DNA from: an uncultured marine group I thaumarchaeote
Lineage (GTDB): Archaea; Thermoproteota; Nitrososphaeria; Nitrososphaerales; Nitrosopumilaceae
NCBI GenBank assembly: GCA_902606965.1
Contig: CACLIK010000007.1
Span: forward strand, 1-37,919
Reading direction: 5' to 3'
Length of the DNA: 37,919 nucleotides
The position numbers and the translations under genes were made by a program. This document shows positions 21,920 through 23,323 of this stretch, in pieces; positions within the stretch are counted from its first letter, which is position 1; each line of letters begins with the position of its first letter. The notes beneath the pieces are model-generated. The model ran no database searches, was not told where the DNA came from, and was given only the letters and a program-made list of their open reading frames with translations.

Positions 21920-21983
21920 TGTTCACAAGACTAAATTTTTTCCATAAAAGCGTTCGCAATCTAGACTGATCGCATAGCATTTT

Positions 21984-22070
21984 CTAAAAAAGATGCCCAG
22001 TACGTGGATTATATCTTCATCCCGTTAAGGTCAGTTCGCCCATCGAACATACCACGTACCAGACTATCAA
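21984..22070 (-). ncRNA. Candidate structured non-coding RNA / riboregulatory element
   Basis: Minus-strand RNA: 13-bp helix GUCUGGUACGUGG (22064-22052) / CCACGUACUGGGC (22007-21995) with internal hairpin GUUCG-AUGGG-CGAAC (22048-22034), followed by U6 (21991-21986). Confidence 0.5.
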
Positions 22071-22087
22071 AAATTATAATATCAAAA

Positions 22088-23323
22088 CTATTTCTTTCTT
22101 TCTAGAATCTCTGATACTATTTTAGCAGTATTTTCTGCTCCATTCCCATCAAAATTTTTCGAAAACTCTTCCAACCTTTCTTCATATTTGTTATAGTTTT
22201 GTCTTATCCTTTGGATTGCCTCGATAACTTGTTTTTTACTCTCCGCTAAAACTCCCAACTGTTTCTCTTCTGCCCATTTTATTTGGTTTGTGTGTTCATC
22301 GTATATCGGCATGCCAATTATAGGCTTTGAATTCATACCCATCACTTCTCCCATTATTGTATGAGAACCGTTGATTACTGCGTATTTACATTCAGTTAAT
22401 ACCGTCTGCATTTCTTGTTCCGTCAAAAAACCAATATCAATTTGAATCCAATCAATCTTTTTTTCATATGCGTCTTTCATTGAATATTTTTTCCCATCTT
22501 TTCCAACAACTCTATCAATAGATTTGTCATTCTTTGCATGAGAAATAATTCGCCTTTCGCCATTCATATCAGTCTCATGGAAAACTTCTTCGTATCTTTG
22601 ACCAGTTCCATCATTTGTAGATTTATTTCCAGTTCTCATCCAATATCCAAAATCTCTCCCATCAACAAGCCCTTCCAAATCAGTTTGTGATGTATGAGCA
22701 GGCAATTTTCTATTCGAGAAATGCCCAACATACGTAACCTTATCTCTAATATCATTAGGAAAATTCAAGTTATATTCACAGATTGTATAAGGTGGGGCTG
22801 AGTCTGCCACCAAGATTCTTGTAGCCTTTGCAATTTGTTTTGATATAAAATATAGTCCTGGGTAAAAATAACTTCTAGATTTCCACAGCTTAGGCATATA
22901 CTGATTTGTTACAAAGAGACTAGGAATACCCCTTTTCTTAGCCAATACGTTAGAGCCCATATCACCATCATTTATCACAACATCAAATTTTTCCTTGTTG
23001 TAGAACTCCCTCTCTTTCTTCATGTAGTTTTTAACTTGATTTACTAAAGAGTGATTGTCTGCTACTGGAAAAAGTATGTTAAGTAGGGATCGTGAAACAC
23101 TTGGACCAACCTTTCCATCTATGGGAGTTGGCATTAGAACTTCATGCACATTATTTTGTTTATCTGGAAATCTTTCAAGTAATTTTTTGTAAACCTCTCC
23201 CTTGCTAAAATAATGAGTGTCAAATTCCTCATTGAGATATTTTGGCAATACCATGTCAAGCCTCATCATTCGTGTGTAATGCCCATTTCCCCAGGGATAG
23301 ATAAACTGCCCTATTTTTTTCAT
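22088..23323 (-). CDS. Glycosyltransferase (GT28/MurG-like fold)
   Basis: 411 aa; YPWGNGHYTRMMRLDMVLPKYL N-terminus, C-terminal VINGSHTIMGEVMGMNSKPIIGMPIYDEHTNQIKWAEEKQLG donor-binding-like region. Confidence 0.78.
   Translation of the reverse strand: MKKIGQFIYPWGNGHYTRMMRLDMVLPKYLNEEFDTHYFSKGEVYKKLLERFPDKQNNVHEVLMPTPIDGKVGPSVSRSLLNILFPVADNHSLVNQVKNYMKKEREFYNKEKFDVVINDGDMGSNVLAKKRGIPSLFVTNQYMPKLWKSRSYFYPGLYFISKQIAKATRILVADSAPPYTICEYNLNFPNDIRDKVTYVGHFSNRKLPAHTSQTDLEGLVDGRDFGYWMRTGNKSTNDGTGQRYEEVFHETDMNGERRIISHAKNDKSIDRVVGKDGKKYSMKDAYEKKIDWIQIDIGFLTEQEMQTVLTECKYAVINGSHTIMGEVMGMNSKPIIGMPIYDEHTNQIKWAEEKQLGVLAESKKQVIEAIQRIRQNYNKYEERLEEFSKNFDGNGAENTAKIVSEILERKK

Follow-up and report, generated by a model that had tools for sequence, protein, structure and literature searches.

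A conserved single-kink-turn RNA of ammonia-oxidising archaea as a probable guide for 2'-O-methylation of 16S rRNA C1402

What is encoded in the 168-bp gap that separates two minus-strand open reading frames in the genome of a marine group I thaumarchaeote? The window, i.e. the whole analysed stretch of 37,919 nucleotides, had previously been inspected without database searches, and this sequence-only reading proposed a structured minus-strand RNA in the gap, richer in GC than its flanks and not a tRNA. The length it gave for the gap agrees with our measurement, and all elements it named are found in the window: a 13-bp closing helix, a hairpin GUUCG-AUGGG-CGAAC, a CUGA...GAUGAA segment, a T6 run and a second hairpin, GCGAUC/GAUUGC; only the number of G-U pairs in the long helix has to be corrected, from four to three. 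The GC fraction is 0.50 for the RNA, 0.32 and 0.09 for the remainder of the gap, and 0.365 for the whole window. The 79-nt minus-strand fold has a predicted energy of -26.7 kcal/mol versus -16.3 kcal/mol for the plus strand; its z-score is -3.5, and 0 of 200 shuffled sequences are as stable. A search with ARAGORN yields neither a tRNA nor a tmRNA, and both identities were rejected. According to our analysis, the RNA is most likely a guide with a new architecture, and we assign a probability of roughly 0.85 to the reading that it is a box C/D-type 2'-O-methylation guide for 16S C1402 (E. coli numbering throughout). Its features are listed in Table 1.

Table 1. Positions of the RNA, its predicted elements and the neighbouring genes in the window.
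Feature	Position	Strand	Remark
Glycosyltransferase, MJ1255-like (match below cut-off)	22088-23323	-	ends upstream of the RNA
Conserved RNA core, ~70 nt	21995..22064	-	putative single-kink-turn box C/D-type guide RNA; covariance model match of 87.2 bits in the window
P1, 5' strand, GUCUGGUACGUGG	22064-22052	-	13/13 pairs changed on both sides
Guide, CGAUGGGCG	22037..22045	-	predicted to pair with 16S rRNA 1400-1408
Box D' (CUGA)	22031..22034	-	GA invariant, 77/77
Kink-turn canonical stem and loop, CC-UUAAC-GG	22022..22030	-	100% of cells paired; compensatory changes at both pairs
Box C' (AUGAAGA)	22014..22020	-	AUGANGA in 77/77
Spacer UAUAAU, box C' to P1	22008..22013	-	site of a second 16S-complementary segment in G579 and G406 (outside the order)
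P1, 3' strand, CCACGUACUGGGC	22007-21995	-	pairs with 22064-22052
U6 tract (T6 run), possible terminator	21986..21991	-	variable in relatives
Promoter-like element CTTTTATGG, window form CGCTTTTATGG	21941-21951	-	between the RNA and the zinc-ribbon gene; conserved across the family
Zinc-ribbon protein, 105 aa	21602-21919	-	weak Rpr2/Rpp21 (RNase P subunit) match, below cut-off

The RNA is conserved, unannotated and single-copy in nearly every ammonia-oxidising archaeon and in their relatives. Close relatives contain copies of 77-91% identity according to a DNA search, which also returns shorter matches from two other families. A first covariance model, built from ten sequences, matches 166 of 250 genomes of the order; a second one, built from 77 sequences, matches 206 of the 222 genomes that are at least 90% complete (193 of 209 high-quality ones), nearly always in a single copy. 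Among the matches listed, the core sequence occurs in records of Nitrosopumilus, Nitrosopelagicus, Nitrosarchaeum, Nitrosotalea and Nitrososphaera as well as in Cenarchaeum, Methylarchaceae and other thaumarchaeal MAGs; the order and family labels of the genomes designated here by G numbers are inferred from these named records. Across the phylum, the covariance model produces only a few weak matches outside the order. Rfam 15 contains no family that scores above its gathering threshold at the RNA, neither in the window nor in divergent homologs, and permissive E-values add nothing credible. Nor is the RNA described in the searchable, subscription-free literature on archaeal C/D sRNAs and thaumarchaeal transcripts. 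The ammonia-oxidising archaea thus gain a near-universal RNA gene that lacks an Rfam annotation. Two model matches each are present in G043 (contigs C31 and C41), G178 and G638; the two matches of G043 score identically and possibly represent an assembly duplicate.

The closing helix (P1) goes far beyond what chance would give, since compensatory change maintains it in homologs from all over the order. In the alignment of 77 sequences, such changes occur at all 13 pairs, 94.3% of the cells are paired, and the covariation score reaches 0.564 compared with 0.210 after shuffling and at most 0.149 for slid controls; these pair counts are biased towards P1 and the kink-turn stem, because both helices were already part of the model used to fit the alignment. 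RNAalifold recovers the same two helices from a MAFFT alignment with no prior structure. The inner 11 pairs of P1 include 50 G-U cells versus a single A-C cell among the homologs, which identifies the minus strand as the functional one; the argument that had been drawn from the wobble pairs of the window thus extends to its relatives. The two smaller hairpins fared differently. GCGAUC/GAUUGC (21973-21956) is present in the window and is not kept in relatives. GUUCG/CGAAC likewise exists in the window, yet it is no conserved stem: its 5' strand drifts into mismatches, while the 3' strand remains almost unaltered. The near-invariant 3' strand and the common mismatches rule against a conserved arm of a three-way junction. 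The pairing mostly reflects the self-complementarity of the guide described below, although the outermost pair covaries somewhat and the hairpin may therefore form in the free RNA.

Judging from its sequence pattern, P1 encloses a D'/C' kink-turn, capped by a short covarying stem, rather than a three-way junction. The CUGA...GAUGAA segment, which had been noticed without an interpretation, is the part that identifies the RNA. CUGA lies 5' of the stem and GAU-GA-N-GA 3' of it, an order that corresponds to box D' followed by box C'. Together they reproduce the kink-turn succession, in which the C-stem is followed by a bulge of three nucleotides, by tandem G-A pairs, by the variable 3b-3n pair and lastly by a C-G pair. 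None of the 77 homologs departs from the GA of box D' or from the AUGA, G and A of box C'; compared with the consensus RUGAUGA, box C' varies only in the U of the U-U position. The 3b-3n pair changes on both sides (U-A, G-C, U-G, U-U, C-C and others). Box D' reads CUGA in 49 homologs, CGGA in 13, CCGA in eight, CUGGA in three, AUGA in two, and CAGA and CUAGA in one each. The stem carries a GNRA tetraloop (GAAA or GCAA) in many relatives, and in others it is 5-7 bp long. A variant kink-turn is found in family f10 (L103, L105, L107 and L109), where an extra nucleotide turns box D' into CUGGA or CUAGA and the capped stem is longer; the guide spacing is retained. An H/ACA sRNA was considered and rejected as well, since the alignment has no consistent ACA after P1 and no pocket, and the upper stem comprises 2 bp.

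Which RNA would such a kink-turn address? Directly 5' of box D' lies the segment UUCGAYGGGCGAA, within which GAYGGGC is invariant in 77/77 homologs. It is complementary to 16S positions 1401-1407, and the corresponding motif, CGCCCGUCG, is found in the rRNAs of the same genomes. Counted from box D', guide positions 4-10 pair in all 77 homologs and position 3 in 74 of them; the duplex comprises 9 bp at positions 3-11, positions 1-2 being unpaired in most of the order. The fifth nucleotide upstream of box D' (22039) is a G that faces C1402. The sole variable position of GAYGGGC (C/U) faces G1405 and pairs either way, and the target site is invariant among those 16S rRNAs in which it was located. 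The guide 9-mer of G041 matches its combined 16S and 23S rRNA in full at exactly one place; shuffled 9-mers have any match there in 4.8% of cases, before a known methylation site is required. Of 13 genomes, 11 have C1402 as their best or second-best target, and no other target recurs; competing targets vary by genome, and in two of the 13 (G189 and G264) other rRNA sites score slightly above it. An alternative site in 23S rRNA, AAAGCCCGUUGG, is good in G041 and was rejected, as it is lost in most other genomes. The predicted assignment to C1402 is based on complementarity and spacing. What speaks for it is that almost all members keep the two unchanged, in contrast to the freely varying remainder of the RNA.

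C1402 lies in the ribosomal P site of the decoding centre, and its ribose is methylated in the two other domains, by the protein RsmI in E. coli and by a guided snoRNP in eukaryotes (PMC11542601). Yeast, human and Arabidopsis carry the homologous Cm1639, Cm1703 and Cm1645, respectively; AtU43 is the guide for the Arabidopsis site, and the archaeal entry is blank (PMC11542601 Table 1). A survey of C/D guides from seven archaea predicts no C1402 site, its helix-44 predictions being only the equivalents of A1408 and G1494 (PMC4644070), and the 16S rRNA of H. volcanii has no Cm1402 and no modification at position 1402 (PMC2584109 Table 4). Because of these two results, Cm1402 cannot be regarded as established in archaea. 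The RNA is a candidate archaeal C1402 guide, in one of the most abundant archaeal groups on Earth. The proteins needed are encoded: fibrillarin scores over the cut-off in 15 of 16 genomes, and Nop and L7Ae are present in 14/14 genomes each. RsmI exceeds the cut-off in 0 of 16 genomes; a weak RsmI match inside the window is CbiF.

Based on these observations, we propose that the RNA acts in trans as a non-coding guide. Boxes D' and C' would form a single kink-turn that has a capped stem of its own; L7Ae would bind this kink-turn and recruit Nop5 and fibrillarin. Guide positions 3-11 would then pair with 16S 1400-1408 and set C1402 opposite the fifth guide nucleotide, with P1 standing in for the terminal C/D kink-turn and holding the guide strand in register with the spacer across from it. 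Fold conservation, the kink-turn motif, the constant complementarity and spacing and the encoded proteins are computational findings; expression of the RNA, its binding by these proteins and the methylation itself we infer. The same complementarity and the same kink-turn would also serve an assembly chaperone or timing factor of the U3 type, in which GAYGGGCG binds the decoding region of 16S rRNA without methylation and the kink-turn only recruits L7Ae; in its favour, the active guides known from archaea do not resemble an RNA with a single kink-turn (PMC8413462). We consider such a role unlikely, however, because the distance from box D' is exactly that of the fifth-nucleotide rule and leads to a site 2'-O-methylated in the other two domains (PMC11542601), and because RsmI is missing while fibrillarin and Nop are present.

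How does the putative methylation guide relate to known guide systems? It shares with archaeal box C/D sRNAs the D'/C' kink-turn, the guide directly upstream of box D', the fifth-nucleotide rule and an rRNA target, and the genomes that bear it encode fibrillarin, Nop5 and L7Ae. Box C', box D' and the kink-turn pattern (tandem G-A/A-G pairs and a 3-nt bulge) all point to box C/D membership, and the guide, expected to be the 10-12 nt upstream of D/D' with its target at the fifth nucleotide, forms a 9-bp duplex in most homologs. Archaeal C/D guides, however, combine a terminal C/D with an internal C'/D' motif, both reported as essential (PMC8413462, PMC7994747). We looked for the terminal motif and found no box C and box D flanking P1 in the alignment; the covarying 13-bp helix occupies their position, for which reason the RNA is not filed as a canonical member. 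It further differs from these sRNAs in its single guide within this order, in a box C' with a free U5 position, and in a real, often GNRA-capped stem where they usually have a K-loop. Whether a box C/D enzyme requires two symmetric motifs is a question on which the single-kink-turn architecture bears, given that both are necessary in archaeal guides according to the literature. Minimal, single-domain C/D snoRNAs of eukaryotes manage with one C/D kink-turn plus one antisense element (PMC7994747); here, by comparison, the kink-turn stem is closed into a hairpin and the termini of the RNA lie within P1, which resembles a circular permutation. U43-type guides (SNORD43) address the homologous nucleotide, as AtU43 does for 18S Cm1645 (PMC11542601), but they use a terminal C/D kink-turn, and no comparison that we made reveals homology in sequence or architecture. 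Bacterial RsmI acts on the same ribose, 16S C1402, but it is a protein enzyme without a guide RNA and is absent from the genomes examined. We take human U43 to be the guide of 18S Cm1703.

The layout itself is asymmetric: the guide side, from P1 to box D', measures about 14-19 nt, and the opposite side is only a short spacer. Two sequences from outside the order, in G579 (L271) and G406 (L272), have the same layout with a spacer that reads AUCCAUUGUAGC. In both, box C' is followed by CCAUUGUAGC, a perfect 10-bp complement of GCUACAAUGG in the 16S rRNA of G579 itself; this site corresponds, as we presume, to approximately E. coli 1237-1246. In view of this second 16S-complementary segment, the layout can be described as two guide slots around one kink-turn, of which the Nitrososphaerales form appears to use one, and a two-guide ancestor is suggested. 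We lean towards the wider view, somewhat more cautiously than towards the guide function as such, that the RNA represents an architecturally distinct class of methylation guide: one closed-stem kink-turn and a long helix that clamps guide and spacer would act as a half-occupied or asymmetric C/D RNP and would place Cm1402 in archaea. The single-copy gene would then date back to the order's ancestor, and related lineages would have a two-guide form. A scan of 800 kb of G041 for canonical C/D sRNAs and sibling RNAs returned only the RNA described here, with a canonical-C/D scanner that had no validated positive control and likewise gave none in 400 kb of a comparison genome.

The genomic neighbourhood bears on two further explanations. 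In Nitrosopumilaceae, the RNA follows a glycosyltransferase-like gene at 25-43 nt in every locus examined and usually precedes a zinc-ribbon gene by 44-80 nt; Nitrososphaeraceae often have the zinc-ribbon gene downstream as well, at 72-1256 nt, with a different gene on the upstream side. Given that the zinc-ribbon gene follows in the same orientation in the majority of Nitrosopumilaceae and in many Nitrososphaeraceae, the RNA could be its cis-regulatory leader or a riboswitch. The distance between RNA and gene, however, varies between 44 and 1256 nt; neither gene is near in several further families of the order, in which the zinc-ribbon gene is not found within 1.5 kb and tRNA genes are often close by instead; and the conserved promoter-like element CTTTTATGG, apparently the promoter of the zinc-ribbon gene, lies in between. 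With neighbours that differ between families and a linkage that is not constant, we rejected the leader, which we regard as extremely improbable. What the context agrees with is a separate RNA gene whose product is either cut out of a longer transcript or transcribed from a weak promoter of its own.

The zinc-ribbon protein is possibly an Rpp21 that has diverged in thaumarchaea, or else a different RNA-binding ribbon. Its weak Rpr2 match invites a second explanation, namely another structured RNA, for example an RNP scaffold or a part of RNase P, whose complementarity to 16S rRNA is coincidental; pairing in the inner hairpin could then account for part of the conservation. This explanation is very unlikely in our judgement, as 25 of 31 genomes contain a separate full-length RNase P RNA, located elsewhere – which also led us to discard an RNase P RNA fragment – and Rfam offers no match. 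Moreover, seven invariant guide nucleotides and an exact D+5 register on a universal methylation site would hardly arise by chance. A tRNA gene lies about 25-170 nt from the RNA in L021, L075, L077, L080, L089 and L272, which belong to families outside the ammonia oxidisers, and this proximity suggests co-transcription.
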